A DNA stretch of 64,000 nt from Desulforamulus reducens MI-1 (GTDB lineage: Bacteria > Bacillota > Desulfotomaculia > Desulfotomaculales > Desulfotomaculaceae), in the NCBI RefSeq assembly GCF_000016165.1, contig NC_009253.1:248001-312000 (forward strand), read 5' to 3'. Numbering within the stretch: the stretch's first letter is position 1; each line of letters begins with the position of its first letter. The notes below the pieces were generated by a model. It was given only the letters and a program-made list of their open reading frames with translations, ran no database searches and was not told the origin of the DNA. Made by a program: the position numbers and the translations under genes. Of this stretch, positions 38,082-61,748 are shown piece after piece.

Positions 38082-39188
38082 GTGGCTGGGAGTACAATGG
38101 AACAAAGGAACGTTTTTACGGCCGAGGAAGTAGAAATTCTAATTGAGGTAAGCGCACTCCTTAGTTCGGATCTTCGGGGAGAGGAAATCCTAGAAATTTT
38201 AATGGAACAGGCTGTATTTTTGGTGAAGGCAGAGACCGGAATATTATGGCTAAGACCGGGAGAAGAAAAGGACTTGGTTCCAGTGGCTGCCTATGGGCTT
38301 GATTTTGCATCCGTCAACCTGTTGCACAAACAATTTAAAGGCTATGTGGAGAGCCTTACTGTGGGTGGCAAATCCATCATCACGAAGGAAAAAACCGGTG
38401 GAAATATACTGCTGGAAAATGCCAGCTTTGCCATGAACATGGCTGTTAAAAGTATGGTTTTTCTTCCTCTGATCAACAAAGGTAGAATCCTGGGGTGTCT
38501 GCAACTGATGAATAAGCAGGACGGAGGGGTCTTTGGACCAAGGGACCTGCGATTATGTAATACCTTTGCCAGCCAGGCAGCGGTGATTATTGACAACAGC
38601 TTCCTTATTGCCAACCAGGAGAAGTTAATGCTTAGTCTGATCAGGGCCCTTTCCTCTGCTCTGGATGCCAGAGATCCCTATACCCAGGGACATTCCGAGC
38701 GTGTCAGTAAGTTGGCCCTTTTAATTGCCAGAGAAATACAAATGAGTCATAAACAGCAAGTAGTCCTACAACGGGCAGCTTTACTACATGATGTGGGAAA
38801 AATTGGCATAAGGGACAATGTATTATTGGAACCAGGCCCTTTGGATGAGCAAAGATGGCAAATTATGAAGAGTCACCCTGTAATCGGAGCCCAGATTATC
38901 CAACAAATTGAGCCCAAATCCATGATGCAGCAAATTTATGACGGGGTCATGTATCATCAAGAAAAGTATGATGGGACAGGGTATCCCAGCGGGCTACGGG
39001 GCAAAGAAATCCCCCTGGTGGCCAGAATCATTGCCATTGCCGATGCCTATGATGCCATTACCAGTGACCGTCCCTATCGAAAGGGAAAAGATGCCAAAGA
39101 GGCTCTGGAGGAAATAGAACGGTGTGCTGGCAAGCACTTTGACCCCCAATTGGTACAGGCCTTTCTAAGAGCCATGGCAGAGCAATGA
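38082..39188 (+). CDS. GAF / HD-GYP domain signalling protein
   Basis: A 368-aa soluble protein. A GAF domain (about 22-175) comes first, then an HD-GYP domain (about 185-365) with His236-Asp237 in ALLHDVGKIG and DGTGYP at 297-302, preceded by YHQEKY. HD-GYP proteins usually hydrolyse cyclic di-GMP; the first His of the HHExxDGxGYP consensus is Tyr291 here, so activity should be tested. There is no receiver domain or membrane segment, so the GAF domain is the probable sensor. GTG 38082 lies 8 nt after AGGGAG. It is a single gene between the arg and ilv clusters with no evident functional link. Confidence 0.88.
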   Translation: MAGSTMEQRNVFTAEEVEILIEVSALLSSDLRGEEILEILMEQAVFLVKAETGILWLRPGEEKDLVPVAAYGLDFASVNLLHKQFKGYVESLTVGGKSIITKEKTGGNILLENASFAMNMAVKSMVFLPLINKGRILGCLQLMNKQDGGVFGPRDLRLCNTFASQAAVIIDNSFLIANQEKLMLSLIRALSSALDARDPYTQGHSERVSKLALLIAREIQMSHKQQVVLQRAALLHDVGKIGIRDNVLLEPGPLDEQRWQIMKSHPVIGAQIIQQIEPKSMMQQIYDGVMYHQEKYDGTGYPSGLRGKEIPLVARIIAIADAYDAITSDRPYRKGKDAKEALEEIERCAGKHFDPQLVQAFLRAMAEQ

Positions 39189-39215
39189 TGTAAAAATTTC
39201 CAACAATTTTAATCC

Positions 39216-39244
39216 TTGACAGCAGAGCAGTAAAAAAATATACT
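39216..39244 (+). promoter_or_regulatory. Promoter of the first ilv T-box leader
   Basis: TTGACA (39216-39221), 17-nt spacer, TATACT (39239-39244). Confidence 0.85.
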
Positions 39245-39270
39245 ATAAGTGTATTCCATATGAAAACAAC

Positions 39271-39537
39271 TTTGATAGGGATTGTGAATCTGAAACAGGG
39301 TTGCAGAGAGCCGGGTAAGGTGAAAGCCGGTACCAATGACAGATTAACTTATCACCCTGGAGTTGCCTCTTCGAAAACCTTTGGTAAGTAGGTGGGGCCG
39401 GGTTAGGAAACCCGTTACCAAATCAGCACAATACAGAATCTGTAAGTGCAAAGTGGCTCTATTGAGCAATCAGGGTGGTACCGCGGAAGGTTTAACCTCT
39501 CGTCCCTGGCATTATGCCAGGAACGAGGGGTTTTTAG
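39271..39537 (+). ncRNA. T-box riboswitch 1 (isoleucine specifier AUC)
   Basis: Stem I base AGGG (39277-39280) pairs with CCCT (39355-39358), and AATCTG (39287-39292) with CAGATT (39340-39345). The loop between holds the specifier AUC at 39351-39353 followed by A. The AGAGAGCCGGG...GGTGAAAGCCGGT apical part, the T-box sequence GGTGGTACCGCGG (39474-39486) and a terminator stem with T-run (39497-39535) follow. Uncharged tRNA-Ile should favour the antiterminator. This leader ends in its own terminator before the second T-box promoter. Confidence 0.93.
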
Positions 39538-39585
39538 TTTTACGGACACCTTGAAAAATTTAACCCGATCTTAACAAGTTATTCC

Positions 39586-39614
39586 TTGACAGTTGTTAAC
39601 TAAGAAATTATACT
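39586..39614 (+). promoter_or_regulatory. Promoter of the second ilv T-box leader
   Basis: TTGACA (39586-39591), 17-nt spacer, TATACT (39609-39614), the same boxes and spacing as the promoter of the first leader. Confidence 0.85.
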
Positions 39615-39639
39615 GATTAATAATTTATATTAACAGCTG

Positions 39640-39903
39640 TGATCGGGACAACAGTCTAAAACAGGCCACAGAGAGCCGGGTTAGGTGGAAACCGGTGCCA
39701 AAGGGTAGACTGTGCTCACCCAGGAGCTGCCCCCGTGAAAGATTTACGAGTAATTGGGGCCGGGATAGAAACCCGTTATGAATTGGCACATTACAGAGGA
39801 AACTGTTTTGATGCATGAGTGGCTCGTAAGAGCAAACAGGGTGGTACCGCGGAAGGTTTAACCTCTCGTCCCTGGCATTATGCCAGGAACGAGGGGTTTT
39901 TTA
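39640..39903 (+). ncRNA. T-box riboswitch 2 (leucine specifier CUC)
   Basis: GGG (39644-39646) pairs with CCC (39719-39721), and AGTCTA (39653-39658) with TAGACT (39706-39711). The specifier in the loop is CUC at 39715-39717 followed by A, i.e. leucine. The T-box sequence and terminator (39837-39901) are identical over 65 nt to 39471-39535 of the first leader. Readthrough leads directly into ilvD. Confidence 0.93.
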
Positions 39904-39924
39904 TTATTTCATCGGGAGGTAAAT

Positions 39925-41589
39925 ATGATGCGCAGCGATACGATGAAGAAAGGCCTGGAGAGAGCGCCACACCGCAGTTTGTTCAGGGCCCTGGGGTTAA
40001 TAGACGAAGAATTATCCCGTCCCATGATTGGTGTGGTGAACTCCTTTAACGAGATTGTACCAGGTCATATGCATTTGAGAGAAATTGCCGAAGCAGTTAA
40101 GGCCGGCGTTCGGATGGCCGGCGGCACACCGGTGGAGTTTCCGGTGATTGCAGTTTGTGATGGCATTGCCATGGGACATCCAGGTATGAGGTACTCCTTG
40201 GCCAGCCGTGAGATCATTGCAGATTCCATTGAGGTTATGGCCCAGGCCCATCCCTTTGACGGGTTGGTGCTAATACCCAACTGCGATAAGGTTGTGCCAG
40301 GCATGTTAATGGCGGCAGCCAGACTGAATATCCCTGCCATTGTGGTAAGTGGGGGACCCATGATGGCAGGTCGATTCCAAGACAAGGATGTCTCCCTGAG
40401 TCAAATGTTTGAAGCAGTGGGAGCTGTGGTGGCTAATCGCATGAGCCAGGAAGAACTGGCCGAGTTAGAGGATCAGGCTTGTCCTGGTTGTGGTTCTTGC
40501 TCCGGCATGTTTACGGCCAACAGTATGAACTGCTTAACCGAAGCATTAGGCATGGCACTGCCCGGTAATGGTACTGTTCCAGCTGTCTCCGCAGCCAGGA
40601 GAAGGTTGGCTAAAACGGCTGGTATGAGAGCCGTGGCCCTGGTTAAGGAAGATCTGAAACCCAGAGATATTCTCACCCCGGAGAACTTCCGGAATGGGTT
40701 GGCTGTGGATATGGCCTTGGGATGTTCCACCAACACAGTGTTACACTTACCCGCCATTGCCCATGAAGCAGGCCTTGATTTAGATTTAAATTTAATTAAC
40801 GAAATAAGCGAAAAATCTCCCCACCTGTGTAAGCTCAGTCCTGCGGGAGAATATCACATACAGGACCTCTATGCCGCCGGCGGTATCCAGGCGGTCATGA
40901 AAGAGTTGTCCCTCAATGGTCTGATTAATCTAAACATTAAGACTGTCAGCGGCTTGACAGTTGAACAACTTATAGAACAGGCCAAGGTTAGAGATTACAA
41001 TGTTATTCGCAGTGTTCAGGAACCCTACAGTCCCACTGGTGGGCTGGCCATCCTGAGGGGAAATCTTGCCCTGGAGGGAGCAGTGGTCAAGCGGGCGGCC
41101 GTAGCGCCGGAAATGCTGCAACATACAGGCCCTGCCAAAGTCTTTGATGGAGAAGAAACAGCCATTGAGGCCATTATGGGTGGCCAAATCAAAGCCGGTG
41201 ATGTGGTGGTAATCCGTTATGAAGGGCCCAAAGGGGGACCTGGTATGAGAGAAATGCTGGGACCCACCTCGGTATTGGCCGGCATGGGGCTGGACAAAGA
41301 AGTTGCCCTTCTGACAGACGGACGTTTCTCCGGGGCATCCCGGGGTGCTTCCATCGGGCACATTTCTCCGGAAGCAGCGGAAGGGGGTCTTATCGCCGTC
41401 CTTCAGGACGGGGATATTGTGGAAATTGACATCCCCAATTACCGCCTCGAAGTAAAACTTGATTCGGAGGAAATAAATCGCCGAATGGCTGCATGGCAGG
41501 CACCGCAGCCCAGAGTAAAGGAAGGTTATCTGGCCCGTTATGCAGAGAAAGTATCCTCTGCGGGTAAAGGGGCCGTTTGTAATCGATAG
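39925..41589 (+). CDS. ilvD: Dihydroxy-acid dehydratase
   Basis: Iron-sulfur dehydratase acting on the dihydroxy acids of valine and isoleucine synthesis. The 554-aa protein has cluster and magnesium ligands in [10 protein letters not shown] and [22 protein letters not shown], and the C-terminal [25 protein letters not shown] 39925 (or 39928) follows GGGAGGT (39914-39920). It is the first gene after the two T-boxes; a longer frame from 39880 lies in the terminator. Confidence 0.97.
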
Positions 41590-41674: not shown

Positions 41675-43339
41675 ATGATGAGAATGTCTGGTGCGAAGAT
41701 TTTACTTGATAGTTTAAAGGAAATGGGTGTTGATACCATTTTTGGCTACCCCGGAGGTTCGGCTATACCCATTTACGATGCACTTTATGATTCTGATATT
41801 CGCCATATATTATGCCGCCATGAACAGGGTGCCGTGCATGCGGCGGACGGCTATGCCAGAGCTTCCGGCAAGGTGGGGGTTTGCCTGGCAACCTCCGGTC
41901 CCGGAGCCACCAACTTGGTAACGGGGATTGCCAATGCGTACATGGACTCCATCCCCTTGGTGGCCATTACTGGTCAGGTACCCACTTCCATGTTGGGGCG
42001 GGATTCCTTTCAGGAGGCCGATATAACGGGTATTACCCTACCCATAACAAAACATAACTACATTGTGAAAGATATTAATGAACTGGGCAAGGTTGTGAAA
42101 GAAGCCTTTCATATTGCCGCCAGCGGGCGGCCCGGTCCGGTATTGATAGACATTCCCAAGGACATTTCTGCCGGGGAGATGGACTATCAGCCCAATGGTC
42201 CTGTGGACCTGCCCGGGTACAAACCGCCGGGCATGGCTCGGGAAGATTTGGTTAATCAGGCCTTTCGTTTAATCGCCGTCAGTGAGCGACCGGTGATTTA
42301 TGCCGGTGGCGGAATTATCAGTGCTGGTGCCCATGAGGAACTGAAGAAATTGGCCGAAACCATTCTGGCTCCGGTGGCAACCACCCTGATGGGGTTAGGG
42401 GGATTCCCCGGTGACCATGCCTTGGCCCTGGGCATGTTGGGTATGCATGGTACAAAATATGCTAACTTTGCTATCTGTGATTGCGATTTGCTCATTGCTG
42501 TGGGGGTTCGCTTCGATGACCGGGTCACCGGTAAAGTGGAGTCCTTTGCTCCCAACGCCAAAATTATTCATATTGACATAGATCCCGCAGAGCTGGGGAA
42601 AAATGTGCGGGTGGATGTACCCATCGCCGGCAATGTAAAACTGGTGTTGCAGCAACTGTTGGAGCGGGTTCAGACAAGGATCCCCGAGGCTTGGCAACAT
42701 AAAGTTGCCCAGTGGAAGAAGGAATATCCCCTTGACTTTGATGAAAACGGTGAGGGTTTAACACCCCAATATGTTATTCGGGAAATCTACCGGCAGACCG
42801 GAGGAGAAGCCCGGATTGCCACCGAAGTGGGTCAGCACCAGATGTGGGCGGCGCACTATTACACCTACACCAAGCCCCGCTCCTTTATCTCCTCCGGTGG
42901 TTTGGGGACCATGGGATATGGTTTTCCTGCTGCCATCGGGGTGCAGGTGGCCTGTCCGGAGGAAACAGTTTTTGATATTGCCGGGGATGGCAGTATCCAG
43001 ATGAATATTCAAGAGTTAGCCACAGCGGTGGATTATGACCTACCTGTAAACATTGCTGTGATGAACAATGGTTACTTGGGCATGGTTCGCCAGTGGCAGG
43101 AACTCTTTTATAATCGTCGCTATTCCTACGTTGAGATGAAAAGCCCCAACTTTGTAAAACTGGCCGAGGCCTATGGTGCCGAAGGCTACCAGGTAACCCG
43201 CAAGGATGAGGTTGCGGAGGTAATGCAGGCAGCAGTGCAATCCCGTAAACCGGTATTAATGGACTTTGTGGTTGAAAGAGAAGGAAACGTATTGCCCTTT
43301 GTCCCACCGGGCAAAGCGTTAAATGAAATGTTAGGGTAG
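41675..43339 (+). CDS. ilvB: Acetolactate synthase large subunit (copy 1)
   Basis: Thiamine-diphosphate enzyme joining two pyruvates, or pyruvate and 2-oxobutyrate. The 554-aa protein has the catalytic Glu50 in [15 protein letters not shown], a central FAD/nucleotide-binding domain, and the ThDP-Mg motif GDGSIQMN...[13 protein letters not shown]. The C-terminal ERE...NVLPFVPPG is standard. It is followed 15 nt later by its regulatory subunit gene ilvN. A second ilvB-like gene lies at 45058-46725. Confidence 0.96.
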
Positions 43340-43354
43340 AAAAGGGGTGTCTAT

Positions 43355-43867
43355 ATGTATCACACACTGGCGGTATTAGTGGAAAATAGTCCCGGTGTAT
43401 TGGCCCGTGTAGCTGGTTTATTTAGCCGGCGTGGTTATAACATCGATAGTTTGGCAGTGGGCCGCACCGACGATCCTGCGATCTCCCGCATGACCATTGT
43501 GGTGGAGGGAGATGAAAGGGTGCTGGAGCAGGTCAGCAAACAACTGCACAAACTGGTGGATGTCATCAAAATTAACGATATCACGGCGAACCCCCATGTG
43601 GATAGGGAATTGGTTCTTATTAAAGTCAGTGCTGACAATGGCAGCCGGAATGAAATTATGCAAATTGCACAGATTTTCCGGGCCAACATCGTTGATTATG
43701 GACACAAGAACCTTACCCTGGAATGTACTGGCAATCAAGAGAAAATTAATGCCTTTGAAGAAGCCCTGCGTCCCTTCGGTATGAAAGAATTAGTACGTAC
43801 CGGTAAAGTAGCTATGCTACGGGGTGCCAAATATACCAATATCACCAAGACAAAAGAGGAGGACTAA
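43355..43867 (+). CDS. ilvN: Acetolactate synthase small (regulatory) subunit
   Basis: A 170-aa ACT-domain protein that activates IlvB and gives valine feedback. The N-terminal ACT domain begins [34 protein letters not shown]; the C-terminal domain contains [18 protein letters not shown] and [17 protein letters not shown]. It starts at ATG 43355 behind AAAAGGGGTG, with two bases before ilvC. Confidence 0.97.
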
Positions 43868-45057: not shown

Positions 45058-46725
45058 TTGAAAATTACCTGTGCCGAAGCGTTAGTTCGTTGCCTGGAGT
45101 TGGAAGGCGTAGAATTGATTTTCGGTTATCCTGGTGGTGCTATCCTCCCTGTCTACGATGCCTTGATAAACAGCAAGATTAAGCATATTTTAACCCGGCA
45201 CGAACAGGGTGCGGCCCATGCGGCCAGTGGCTATGCTCGAACAACGGGCAAAGTTGGGGTATGCATGACTACCTCAGGACCCGGTGCTACAAACCTAGTC
45301 ACAGGTTTGGCCAACGCATACATGGACTCTATTCCCCTGGTTGCTATCACCGGCCAGGTTCCCACCTCTCAGGTAGGGACTGATGCCTTCCAGGAAGTGG
45401 ATATTACCGGTATTACAATACCAGTTACCAAACATAATTACCTGGTCAAAGATCCTAAAATGTTGCCCAAAATTTTGAAGCAAGCCTTTCATATTGCCCA
45501 GACAGGTAGGCCGGGCCCGGTTTTAATTGACCTGCCCAAGGATGTGGCCCAGGCCGAAATTAACTTTAATTACCCCCAAGATGTGGAACTAATGGGGTAC
45601 AAACCAACGGTTAAGGGGCATGTGGCTCAGATCAACCAAGCTGCCAAATTGATCATGCAGGCAGAACGGCCGGTTATTTATACCGGAGGAGGTATTGTTA
45701 ATGCCAACGCCTCGGAGGAACTGCTTTGGTTGGCTGAAACCATCGATGCTCCGGTGGTGTCTACCCTAATGGGATTAGGTGCCTTTCCCGGAGATCACAG
45801 ATTGTTTTTAGGGATGCTGGGTCTACATGGTATTAAAGCGGCCAATTTGGCGGTGACAGAGTGCGATCTGCTGATTACATTAGGTGCTCGCTTTGATGAC
45901 AGGGTTACGGGTAGAATCAGTGGCTTTGCTCCCAATGCCAAGGTGATCCATGTGGACATTGACCCCGCAGAAATAAGTAAGAATGTTATTTCTCACATGC
46001 CAATTGTGGGAGATACCAAAAAAGTGTTGGAAGCTTTACTGGTTCGGCTGGATAAGAAGCAGAACATTTCTTGGAATGCCAAAGTAGCCGACTGGAAGAA
46101 AGAGTTTGGGCCTAGATATCAAGCTGAAGGTGAGTATCTGAAGCCCCAGCATATTATAGAAGAAATTCATCGGCATACCAATGGTAAAGCCATCATGACC
46201 ACTGACGTAGGCCAGCATCAGATGTGGGTGGCTCAACACTATACCTTTACTGGCCCAAGGGATTTGGTTACTTCTGGCGGATTGGGCTGCATGGGCTTTG
46301 GTCTTCCCGGTGCCATCGGGGCACAAATAGGCAGGCCCAATGAAACCGTCGTTTTGGTAACAGGTGACGGCAGCTTCCAGATGACTTTGAATGAACTGAG
46401 CACAGCAGCAGAGCAGGGTTTGCCCCTGAAAATATTTGTTCTGAACAACCAGCGGCTGGGTATGGTTCGGCAACTTCAGGAATTCTATTGTGATAAACGC
46501 TATACCGCTGTGGATTTTTCTTTTGTGCCGGATTTCGCTGCACTGGCCAGGGTGTACGGCTTTAAGGGCATAACCGTTAAGAACGAAGAAGAACTTCAGA
46601 AGGCCTTAAAGGAAACCTTTGGGGAGACGGGGCCGGTGCTGGTGGATTGTACCATTGATCCTGAAGAAAATGTTTTGCCCATGGTGTTGGCTGGTAAAGA
46701 TATCAATGATTGTGTGGATTGTTAA
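45058..46725 (+). CDS. ilvB: Acetolactate synthase large subunit (copy 2)
   Basis: Second AHAS catalytic subunit, 555 aa, clearly paralogous to the product of 41675-43339. Glu49 in RHEQGAAHAASGYAR, the FAD domain and GDGSFQMTLNELSTA...NNQRLGMVRQLQEFY are intact, so it appears functional. TTG 45058 lies 6 nt after GGGAGGG. No second ilvN follows. It may share IlvN or favour 2-oxobutyrate for isoleucine; neither can be told from sequence. leuA follows by 24 nt. Confidence 0.94.
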   Translation: MKITCAEALVRCLELEGVELIFGYPGGAILPVYDALINSKIKHILTRHEQGAAHAASGYARTTGKVGVCMTTSGPGATNLVTGLANAYMDSIPLVAITGQVPTSQVGTDAFQEVDITGITIPVTKHNYLVKDPKMLPKILKQAFHIAQTGRPGPVLIDLPKDVAQAEINFNYPQDVELMGYKPTVKGHVAQINQAAKLIMQAERPVIYTGGGIVNANASEELLWLAETIDAPVVSTLMGLGAFPGDHRLFLGMLGLHGIKAANLAVTECDLLITLGARFDDRVTGRISGFAPNAKVIHVDIDPAEISKNVISHMPIVGDTKKVLEALLVRLDKKQNISWNAKVADWKKEFGPRYQAEGEYLKPQHIIEEIHRHTNGKAIMTTDVGQHQMWVAQHYTFTGPRDLVTSGGLGCMGFGLPGAIGAQIGRPNETVVLVTGDGSFQMTLNELSTAAEQGLPLKIFVLNNQRLGMVRQLQEFYCDKRYTAVDFSFVPDFAALARVYGFKGITVKNEEELQKALKETFGETGPVLVDCTIDPEENVLPMVLAGKDINDCVDC

Positions 46726-49553: not shown

Positions 49554-50054
49554 ATGAATCAGCAGGGTAAAGTATGGAAGTTTGGCAACGACATTGACAC
49601 GGATATCATTATTGCAGCACGCTATTTAAATAGTTCCGACCCCGTGGAGTTGGCTAAGCACTGCATGGAAGATGGTGACCCTACCTTTGCTTCCAAGGTA
49701 AGCGCCGGGGATGTTATGTTGGCGGGTAAAAACTTTGGCTGTGGCAGTTCCCGGGAACATGCCCCCATTGCCATTAAAGCGGCGGGAGTATCCTGTGTGG
49801 TGGCTAAATCCTATGCGCGGATTTTCTATCGTAATGCCTTTAACATTGGTTTGCCTATCTTTGAATGTCCAGAGGCTGTGGACGAAATCAATGAGGGAGA
49901 TGTGATCACCGTAGATGCCGCCAGCGGGGCCATTGTTAACCAAACCAGCGGCAAGCACTATCAGGCAGTACCCATTCCCGATTTTATGAGGCAAATCATC
50001 GACGCCGGCGGACTGATCAGCTATGTTAAAGGACGGGTGAAACAAGATGTATAA
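49554..50054 (+). CDS. leuD: 3-Isopropylmalate dehydratase small subunit
   Basis: A 166-aa swivel domain with [11 protein letters not shown] and [18 protein letters not shown], the substrate-binding loop of the short LeuD type. It starts immediately after the leuC stop and overlaps leuB by 8 nt. Confidence 0.97.
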
Positions 50055-59604: not shown

Positions 59605-59642
59605 AAAGGAGGTGATGCTAGTTGCAGAAACAAGACAACTAA
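59605..59642 (+). CDS. Candidate 6-codon leader peptide before the glmS ribozyme
   Basis: AAAGGAGGTGAT (59605-59616) is a 12-nt match to the 16S rRNA 3' end. TTG at 59622 starts a six-codon frame (MQKQDN) stopping at 59640-59642, 9 nt before the ribozyme cleavage site. An alternative ATG at 59615 (MLVAETRQLNN, stop 59648-59650) lies too close to the ribosome site but would end directly at the cleavage site. The peptide itself is unlikely to matter; ribosome loading may. Confidence 0.4.
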
Positions 59643-59644
59643 AT

Positions 59645-59823
59645 AACTGAAGCGCCAGAACCTTTTACAAAGTAAGGGTTGACGAGGAGAGGGAGTATCG
59701 ATGTTTCGGCGGATGCCCTCCGGCCCAGTTGCGGCCGTAAAAGCAGAACAAAGCTGGAAGGTAACTTTCGGTACAAAAACTGCGGGTGACTAAAAGGCGA
59801 CATTTGTCAATGTTTTACGCCCT
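59645..59823 (+). ncRNA. glmS ribozyme (glucosamine-6-phosphate-activated)
   Basis: Self-cleaving leader. The cleavage site is the A-G step at 59651/59652 in AAGCGCC. Conserved core stretches are GACGAGGAGAGGG, TATCGA, TTCGGCGGATGCCCTCC and GGGTGACTAAAAGGCGACA. With glucosamine-6-phosphate bound, cleavage leaves a 5'-OH glmS mRNA that is rapidly degraded, closing a feedback loop on glmS. Confidence 0.96.
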
Positions 59824-59918
59824 GGTATTTTATTGCCATTATCGGGGTAAAATCACACAAAAAGCATGACGCCGTGACCGGATGGTCGCGGCATGACTAT
59901 TTTAAGGAGGTCGACATT

Positions 59919-61748
59919 ATGTGTGGTGTAGTCGGCTATGTAGGAAACAAACCTGCAACACCTATTATTGTGGATGGTTTAAAGAAACTTGAATATAGAG
60001 GTTACGATTCTTCCGGTGTGGCTGTTCTGGATAAGGACGGCCTAAAGGTCGAGAAAAAAATGGGCCGTTTAGCTGAATTGGAAAAGGCCCTGGCAGGCAG
60101 AGAAGTGGAAGCTACCATTGGCATTGGCCATACTCGCTGGGCCACCCACGGTCGCCCCAGCGATGTAAATGCACACCCCCATACCTCCAATGACGGTAAA
60201 ATTGCGGTGGTTCACAATGGGATTATAGAAAACTACCTGCAATTACGGGAATGGCTATCTTCCCAGGGCCATACCTTTAAATCCGAAACCGATACCGAAG
60301 TAATCCCCCATCTGATCGAACATTTCTATAAAGGGGATCTCATTGAAGCTGTACAAAAAACTGTGTCCCATTTGGAAGGTTCCTATGCCATCATGGCTAT
60401 CTCTGTGGATCAACCCGGACGTATTGTGGCAGTGCGCCAGGATATGCCTCTGGTTGTTGGTCTGGGTGAAGGTGAAAACCTGCTGGCTTCCGACATCCCG
60501 GCCCTGCTAAAGCACACCCGGAAGTGCTATCTGCTCAATGACGGTGACGTGGTTGATTTACGGGCAGAAGAAGTAATTATTCAGGATGTTACGGGTAAAG
60601 TTGTGCAAAAGGATATCTTCGAAGTGACCTGGGATGCCGAAGAGGCCGAAAAGGGCGGCTATGAGCATTTCATGCTGAAAGAAATTAACGAGCAGCCCAG
60701 AGCCCTGCGGGATACTCTGAAGGGCCGTATCTCCCATGCTGGAGATAAAGTAATCCTGGATGAAATCAAGATGACCCCGGAGGAAGTTCAAAATATCAAA
60801 CGAGTTATTATCACCGCCTGCGGTACGGCCTACCATGCAGGGCTGGTGGGCAAATACGTAATCGAACAACTGGTACGGGTTCCAGTTGAAGTGGATATTG
60901 CTTCGGAATTCCGCTACCGTGATCCCCTAGTGGATAAAGACACCTTGGTTGTGGTAGTAAGTCAATCCGGGGAAACTGCCGATACCCTGGCAGCCCTCCG
61001 GGAAGCCCGCCGCCGGGGGGCCAGAGTGGTGGCCATTACCAACGTCATTGCCAGCTCCGTTGCCCGGGAAGCAGACGATATTATCTACACTTGGGCCGGC
61101 CCTGAAATTTCCGTGGCCTCCACCAAGGCCTATACCACCCAGTTGGTAGCCATGTACCTCTTGGCCCTATACCTGGCCCAGGAGCGTAATACTCTGGCAG
61201 CCGGCAATATTAAAGAAATTCTGGATGACCTAAAAAGTATTTACGCCAAGGCCCAAGAAGTACTGGATGATATTGAACCCATTAAGGAATTTGCCGAAAA
61301 ATACCACAAGGCAGAGGATACCTTCTTCATTGGCCGTGGCCTGGACTACGCCGTAGCTTTGGAAGGGTCCCTAAAACTGAAGGAAATCTCCTACATCCAT
61401 GCCGAAGCCTACGCTGCCGGTGAACTGAAACACGGCACCCTGGCCCTGATTGTGGAGAATATCCCAGTGATTGCTCTGGCCACCCAGCAAAGCCTCTTTG
61501 AAAAAATGGTTAGTAACATCAAAGAAGTGAAGGCCAGAGATGCCTCTGTAATTGCCCTGGCCATGGAAGGACATACCGAAGTGGAAAAGGTAGCTGACCA
61601 AGTACTGTACATTCCCAAGACCCACCCGGTACTGGCACCCATTATCACCGTAATTCCACTGCAACTGTTGGCCTACTACATGGCTGTATACCGCGGTTGT
61701 GACGTTGATAAGCCAAGAAATTTGGCGAAGAGTGTAACTGTGGAGTAG
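59919..61748 (+). CDS. glmS: Glutamine-fructose-6-phosphate aminotransferase
   Basis: Makes glucosamine-6-phosphate from fructose-6-phosphate and glutamine. The 609-aa protein has the N-terminal glutaminase domain with Cys2 as nucleophile (MCGVVGYVG), HTRWATHG and EN-YLQLREWL. Two SIS domains (about 290-430 and 460-595) carry TACGTAYHAG, SQSGETADTL and the C-terminal KSVTVE. ATG 59919 follows AAGGAGG; an inverted repeat (about 59864-59896) lies just before that site. Expression is controlled by the upstream ribozyme. Confidence 0.98.
   Translation: MCGVVGYVGNKPATPIIVDGLKKLEYRGYDSSGVAVLDKDGLKVEKKMGRLAELEKALAGREVEATIGIGHTRWATHGRPSDVNAHPHTSNDGKIAVVHNGIIENYLQLREWLSSQGHTFKSETDTEVIPHLIEHFYKGDLIEAVQKTVSHLEGSYAIMAISVDQPGRIVAVRQDMPLVVGLGEGENLLASDIPALLKHTRKCYLLNDGDVVDLRAEEVIIQDVTGKVVQKDIFEVTWDAEEAEKGGYEHFMLKEINEQPRALRDTLKGRISHAGDKVILDEIKMTPEEVQNIKRVIITACGTAYHAGLVGKYVIEQLVRVPVEVDIASEFRYRDPLVDKDTLVVVVSQSGETADTLAALREARRRGARVVAITNVIASSVAREADDIIYTWAGPEISVASTKAYTTQLVAMYLLALYLAQERNTLAAGNIKEILDDLKSIYAKAQEVLDDIEPIKEFAEKYHKAEDTFFIGRGLDYAVALEGSLKLKEISYIHAEAYAAGELKHGTLALIVENIPVIALATQQSLFEKMVSNIKEVKARDASVIALAMEGHTEVEKVADQVLYIPKTHPVLAPIITVIPLQLLAYYMAVYRGCDVDKPRNLAKSVTVE

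Follow-up and report, generated by a model that had tools for sequence, protein, structure and literature searches.

The biosynthetic operon that begins with ilvD in the window (the whole stretch of 64,000 nucleotides analysed here, from Desulforamulus reducens MI-1) is preceded by two complete T-box leaders, the first of isoleucine type and the second of leucine type, each behind a promoter-like site of its own. In RNA that reads through from the first promoter, the spacer between the leaders probably pairs with stem I of the second one, as judged from RNA folding, and spacers with this capacity recur in related arrays of two families.

Tandem leaders, promoters and operon

Both leaders scored above the gathering threshold of the T-box family RF00230, with covariance-model matches spanning positions 1-219 of 219 (Table 1). 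This covariance search was the check proposed with the original prediction of complete tandem T-boxes, and we regard the presence of tandem Ile and Leu T-boxes as practically certain. Alignment to the T-box model reads ATC and CTC at the specifier positions, in agreement with the AUC and CUC codons that had been predicted. The cognate tRNA genes, tRNA-Ile(GAU) and tRNA-Leu(GAG), are present in the genome, and both have an A-CCA end (discriminator A) that matches the UGGU of the T-box bulge. The terminator arms pair with a free energy of -26.5 kcal/mol and the same 5' arm pairs with the T-box sequence at -9.9 kcal/mol, giving a mutually exclusive antiterminator and terminator with a U-tract. 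Both leaders are predicted by their T-box features to act by tRNA-dependent antitermination, and the two switches lie in series, each with its own terminator, ahead of one operon. The genome (3,608,104 bases) yielded 19 T-box matches, and among the matches listed there is no other pair so close together. ARAGORN reported an 86-nt tRNA-Pro with anticodon GGG on the minus strand of L245 (63-148; about 1,733,000 in G000, this genome), which is long for a tRNA-Pro and is possibly a degenerate or odd tRNA-like gene.

A TTGACA-17-TATACT site had been predicted for each leader, and both sites, P1 and P2, were found, with hexamers conserved in all seven arrays of the genus. Each has 11 of 12 matches; the remaining six of the eight promoter-like sites in 39000-40100 score 9, and shuffled versions of this region hold a mean of 1.4 such sites. 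In P2, all 12 hexamer bases are invariant across the 7/7 genus arrays versus 3 of 17 in its 17-nt spacer. Both promoters are very probably functional. Since the conserved P2-like site lies between the T-boxes, RNA started there would pass one switch only.

The gene order, ilvD-ilvB-ilvN-ilvC-ilvB2-leuA-leuC-leuD?-leuB-cimA, indicates an operon that serves the synthesis of isoleucine, valine and leucine. The leuD-sized ORF gave no family match at the strict threshold. The operon contains two genes for the acetolactate synthase large subunit (41675-43339 and 45058-46725), and a small-subunit gene follows only the first. A gene for an HD-GYP-like protein (38082-39188; its match to a c-di-GMP phosphodiesterase family is below the cut-off) sits between the ilv leader and ORFs that look like arg genes. 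Elsewhere in the window, a glmS ribozyme (59640-59794, 102.6 bits) precedes an ORF at 59874-61748, presumably glmS.

Table 1. Features of the array and its operon, in window coordinates
Feature	Position	Strand	Basis or remark
Promoter P1, TTGACA-17-TATACT	39216..39244	+	Motif; both hexamers conserved in 7/7 genus arrays
T-box leader 1 (Ile)	39263..39510	+	Rfam RF00230, 100.4 bits (gathering 93)
Specifier 1, ATC (Ile)	39351..39353	+	Alignment to T-box model
Antiterminator/terminator module 1	39471..39535	+	65/65 identical to module 2; T-box bulge TGGT 39476-39479
Inter-T-box spacer, holding P2; expected only in P1 RNA	39536..39620	+	RNA fold
Anti-stem I arm, CCCGATC	39564..39570	+	Pairs with 39641-39647
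Promoter P2, TTGACA-17-TATACT	39586..39614	+	Motif; conservation in genus
Inner arm of spacer hairpin	39589..39599	+	Pairs with 39630-39640 in this genome
T-box leader 2 (Leu)	39630..39876	+	Rfam RF00230, 96.6 bits (gathering 93)
GATCGGG, 5' strand of T-box 2 stem I base and 3' arm of spacer hairpin	39641..39647	+	T-box model, fold
Specifier 2, CTC (Leu)	39715..39717	+	Alignment to T-box model
Antiterminator/terminator module 2	39837..39901	+	T-box bulge TGGT 39842-39845
ilvD, first gene of operon	39928..41589	+	NCBIfam TIGR00110 and others
leuD-sized ORF	49554-50054		leuD by position and length only

Arrays in relatives and history of the two copies

Arrays were sought by comparing the tandem leader with 120 related genomes and by examining the DNA upstream of ilvD, to a depth of at most 2.5 kb, in 80 regions from the order; these 80 regions are part of the matches listed and do not include the seven genus arrays. 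Twelve tandem arrays were found in two families, seven in the genus and five in a second family. Seven of the nine genus genomes (this one included) carry an array, always Ile-Leu with ATC in copy 1 and CTC in copy 2 (the specifier in copy 1 of G008 was read by eye), and the remaining two have a single Leu T-box each. In the second family, five of the seven genomes with ilvD found carry arrays, namely two Ile-Val, two Ile-Leu and one Ile-Val-Leu; of the other two, one has a single T-box with its specifier unread and one has none. The triple array lies before ilvD at L175 1200-2400 (G027 C11, about 42,460-43,660). Copy 1 reads ATC (Ile) in 12/12 arrays, and every T-box of the 12 has its own TTGACA/TATACT-type promoter. 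By motif, the 80 ilvD-upstream regions comprise 54 with a single ATC T-box, two with GTC, two with CTC, five with an unread specifier, 12 with none and five arrays, such that 54 of the 63 single T-boxes before ilvD in the order are of isoleucine type.

A whole-phylum scan for a T-box-like terminator followed by TTGACA-TATACT matched 4 of 398 genomes (G000, G004, G006 and G027), all in the two known families; the scan demands exact hexamers and terminator letters, misses known arrays such as that of G011 and is no survey. A further match to the terminator-promoter pattern, in G124, was rejected as it is without a T-box motif. Among 80 named IlvD loci, many of them cut upstream of the gene, eight have one T-box motif and none has two. 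Tandem T-boxes lacking an internal promoter were also sought, in 13 genomes, and at least one close pair was found, in G117. By eye this pair has the same specifier triplet twice and a spacer of about 25 nt, and the promoter pattern matches nothing in its 801 bases, the upstream part included.

T-box duplication and change of specificity are reportedly the subject of a 2008 RNA paper on T-box evolution. Such a history had been predicted here, in the form of duplication, a change of specifier and a 3' half homogenised by gene conversion, on the grounds of identical 65-nt 3' ends beside differing stem I regions. The two modules indeed share 65/65 bases, with identity extending on neither side, versus 67% (86/129) in the stem I parts; a match by chance was rejected. 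In the genus, the nearest neighbour of stem I is the same-position copy of another genome for 14/14 copies, which places the duplication and the Ile/Leu split before the genus. Nearest neighbours in the second family are mixed by position. The copy 1 module here has its nearest neighbour in copy 2 of its own genome (65/65, against 94% for the next best); in the six other genus arrays the two copies share 84-91%. These comparisons support the predicted history.

Identity within arrays is 62-75% for stem I (the 62% value, from G008, being affected by a mis-set stem I start of copy 1), 72-80% for the middle part and 81-91% for the module; G053 was measured for the module only, its copy 1 being left out of the other two identities because the end of the region could not be located. 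The exceptions are this genome and G037. The Ile-Val pair of G037 (L131, about 1910-2420) has near-identical 3' halves of ~150 nt beside 73% identity in stem I. Its homogenised tract (module 97%, middle part 97%) is longer than the one here and, by sequence comparison, is independent of it. Since 65-nt identity is restricted to this genome, with one other homogenised array, gene conversion is the better reading. Purifying selection on the antiterminator and terminator, acting without gene conversion and independently of the readings of logic weighed below, is an unlikely cause of the identity: arrays with no sign of conversion do keep 81-91% module identity, yet sister arrays vary in the terminator loop and in the segment that separates the antiterminator strands, both of which are identical here, and the six other genus arrays stay at 84-91%. 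The module here has a mean identity of 0.897 to the Leu copies of the genus and 0.859 to the Ile copies, a weak hint that copy 2 may have been the donor.

Predicted spacer hairpin and stem I

RNA folding gave -28.3 kcal/mol for the stretch 39536-39648 (z -5.04), which none of 200 shuffles equalled; a comparable control stretch before P1 gave z +0.63. Fold z was negative for all 13 spacers of the 12 arrays (-0.85 to -5.28, mean -2.37), and 14 control stretches ranged from -1.56 to +1.58. With one mis-bounded control left out, the 13 untranscribed controls had a mean of +0.25, and a rank test against the spacers, ignoring kinship, gave p 3.9e-5. In all 13 spacer folds, RNA lying upstream is the pairing partner of the stem I 5' strand. 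The inner helices of the hairpin differ from genome to genome.

In the genus, nine neighbouring stem I columns are spacer-paired in 7/7 folds. All 63 cells of this helix are paired, 53 by Watson-Crick and 10 by G-U pairs, a count that leans towards paired cells as it takes each sequence's own fold and columns picked as paired. Pairs were counted in this way because a MAFFT alignment of the spacers puts the left arms of two clades out of register. Both sides have changed in columns -6 and -10, and in -11 where it is paired. Between clades and families the arms differ in sequence and place. A test independent of spacer folding, in which spacers were re-dealt among stem I strands, found a fit as good as that of the own partners in 0/20000 permutations of 11 representatives, some of them related, and in 42/20000 of eight. 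Duplex z likewise had a mean of -2.19 over the 13 spacers, against -0.75 over 12 controls (p 0.0025), the control mean showing that controls too have slight complementarity. Copy 1 of G008, with its mis-set stem I start, and, needlessly, copy 1 of G053 were left out of these controls, although both are among the 14 control stretches of the spacer folds. Duplex z was above -1.2 in 4/13 spacers, those of G011 (+0.22) and G045 and both of G027. Taken together, these sequence comparisons indicate that the spacer has changed in concert with stem I from clade to clade. G011 (L132 357-449) is an exception: its arm opposite stem I of T-box 2 is part of the P2 transcript itself, where it would act on P2 RNA as well.

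The minus strand of this spacer also folds well (z -3.30). Across the 13 spacers the plus strand has a mean z of -2.38 versus -1.88 for the minus strand and is the better in just 9/13 (p 0.07), an asymmetry too weak to prove that the inverted repeat originated at the RNA level only, and a DNA-level inverted repeat is possible. The repeat could be an insulator or processing site, either keeping apart a pair of T-boxes whose 3' modules are interchangeable or offering a target to a double-strand RNase, with the stem I pairing as a by-product, or it could be a DNA element such as an operator around P2. We consider this improbable. An insulator does not require the use of stem I, yet stem I is engaged in every fold; the G-U pairs of the genus helix, 10 of 63 cells in the transcribed sense and in columns picked as paired, argue against a DNA element; and arms that vary between clades and families are unlike one operator. 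Pairing of spacer and stem I in the read-through RNA remains, from the folds and the re-dealing test, the likely reading.

The modelled effect on T-box 2 is a higher cost of forming its native stem I base. In the genus this cost rises from 0-3.9 kcal/mol in RNA from its own promoter to 3.7-11.3 kcal/mol in read-through RNA (7/7 arrays), and in this genome from 1.3 to 9.0 kcal/mol. It is higher on read-through in 12 of 13 cases, with a weak or absent effect in G053 (0.0) and G045 (0.3 kcal/mol), and only for 8/13 spacers did no more than 5 of 100 shuffled versions reach the observed cost. The folding model leaves out tRNA, the K-turn and tertiary contacts, and in long folds the probability of the stem I base is low (0-0.45) even for P2 RNA. 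In the triple array of G027, stem I of the T-box that follows either spacer becomes costly, at 9.9 and 9.0 kcal/mol. With the spacer predicted to occupy its stem I, T-box 2 should bind tRNALeu poorly on read-through RNA; that P1 RNA is effectively blind to leucine is, on these folds, a possibility to which we give slightly less than an even chance.

Regulatory logic and known systems

The original prediction held that the first transcript must pass two terminators and that the array can weigh isoleucine and leucine starvation differently. The topology stands; what had been missed is that the spacer in P1 read-through RNA is able to pair with the Leu T-box at its stem I, and this changes the logic to be expected. 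We propose that two full promoter-plus-T-box cassettes act in series before the branched-chain amino acid operon. RNA started at P2 would contain the Leu T-box only and be read by uncharged tRNALeu. RNA started at P1 would meet the Ile T-box first, and uncharged tRNAIle would let it past terminator 1, after which the spacer would fold back on the 5' strand of T-box 2 stem I and hamper the Leu sensor. Isoleucine would then be sensed on P1 RNA and leucine on P2 RNA, on separate molecules and not twice on one. Such separate sensing, with a spacer-hampered Leu sensor on P1 RNA, is in our view the best explanation, though we hold it tentatively and with clearly less than even confidence.

If T-box 2 were functional on P1 RNA, isoleucine starvation alone could not induce the operon. 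This is the consequence of a plain serial AND gate, in which P1 RNA passes both terminators, binding of tRNALeu refolds T-box 2 to its native form and pairing by the spacer amounts to no more than a small kinetic obstacle; P2 would give control by leucine only, with leucine as the master input and isoleucine as a boost. The published reading of contiguous T-boxes before branched-chain amino acid operons, in the portion of the source at hand, requires two uncharged tRNAs (PMC12452182), and the complete terminator 2 wins in six of the eight arrays examined, both of which suit an AND gate. It leaves the recurring, co-varying anti-stem I arm without a role, however, and since copy 1 is of isoleucine type in every array, as are 54 of the 63 single T-boxes found in the order, a strict AND gate would cost the lineage the Ile-only response expected of those single T-boxes. 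The same figures favour separate sensing, possibly as an OR gate, over a simple AND. We regard the AND gate as a real possibility, with about one chance in three.

Were the hairpin merely to disable T-box 2, terminator 2 would halt P1 RNA. The array could be a dead end for P1 RNA, terminator 2 being an unconditional stop imposed by the spacer hairpin and the Ile cassette serving to make a long leader RNA or to affect P2 by passing RNA polymerase. The hampering of T-box 2 in read-through RNA and the stability of terminator 2 in 6/8 arrays examined are consistent with this. Retention of P1, the ATC specifier and T-box 1 in 12/12 arrays of two families is hard to explain without an output, and we find a dead end quite improbable.

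Under separate sensing, P1 RNA would have to pass terminator 2 if isoleucine starvation alone is to induce the operon; passage without leucine starvation is, on the folding evidence, rather unlikely. One candidate route is a terminator hand-over, in which the 3' arm of terminator 1, once freed, would capture terminator 2's identical 5' arm before hairpin 2 forms. With antiterminator 1 held, the modelled probability of hand-over at the 5'-arm stage reaches 0.91 in this genome, lies at 0.69-0.89 for four further arrays of the genus and drops to 0.25-0.52 for four second-family spacers; it is 0.00 in 4/13 spacers (G002, G006, G011 and G045). With terminator 2 complete, hand-over still prevails in this genome (0.88 vs 0.05), and of the eight arrays examined among the 12 it wins in two, G000 (this genome) and G037; terminator 2 wins at 0.83-0.99 in the other six. 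Modelled hand-over is therefore not general, and the folds do not support a genus-wide OR gate. A search for selection on cross-pairing of the terminators gave no separable signal, as T-box terminator arms are conserved anyway. The hand-over persists only in the two arrays with homogenised modules, which suggests that gene conversion may matter for function. A natural RNA OR gate of two ON switches, in which starvation for Ile (through P1) or Leu (through P2) would suffice by way of a blinded Leu sensor and terminator hand-over, is distinctly unlikely. Under that reading, conversion would have made the modules of this genome identical, which in the folding model tips terminator 2 towards read-through.

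The array provides a specific case, open to experiment, where the start of an RNA at one promoter or the other may decide which sensor it can use. Mutations here could tell AND, OR and dead-end behaviour apart, and a natural series of one, two and three sensors is on hand for comparison. The parts are ordinary and the arrangement is of a known kind; what appears to be new is the recurring spacer-stem I feature. Among the matches listed in a literature search of titles and abstract beginnings, covering neither subscription papers nor supplements, pairing of a spacer with stem I of a second T-box was not found described.

The contiguous T-boxes of Bacillota (Morales and Merino 2025, PMC12452182) are alike in placing two full T-boxes before ilv genes as tandem switches; unlike the present case, no internal promoter, Ile/Leu split or spacer structure is described in the part of that paper at hand, and its supplementary tables may list this array. 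Two T-boxes upstream of the homoserine dehydrogenase gene of C. difficile are presumed to recognise different tRNAs (PMC11477304), which is a likeness; in the available portion, promoter or spacer structure is not described. Double T-boxes have been proposed to sharpen the response through cooperative action and are thought to derive from duplication (PMC9413887, in part), an origin shared with the array, whereas the excerpt describes no internal promoter or spacer structure; the G117 pair resembles these. Duplication of T-boxes with a change of specificity has been reported (PMC2494555, in part), and the mode of action of tandem T-boxes was called unknown in the excerpt of a 2020 review (PMC7583486). 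A tandem of an adenine riboswitch and a Tyr T box has promoters before and between its switches (Sherlock et al. 2022, PMC9481103), and there, as predicted here, the internal promoter lets the downstream switch act alone. That pair unites an OFF and an ON switch of different classes, unlike the two T-boxes here, and the sections at hand describe no pairing of a spacer with the second sensor. The same sections list OR among the logic functions unseen in nature and state that it could arise from two interacting ON switches (PMC9481103). If the OR-gate reading were true, the array would be a natural pair of tandem ON switches with the logic listed there as unseen.
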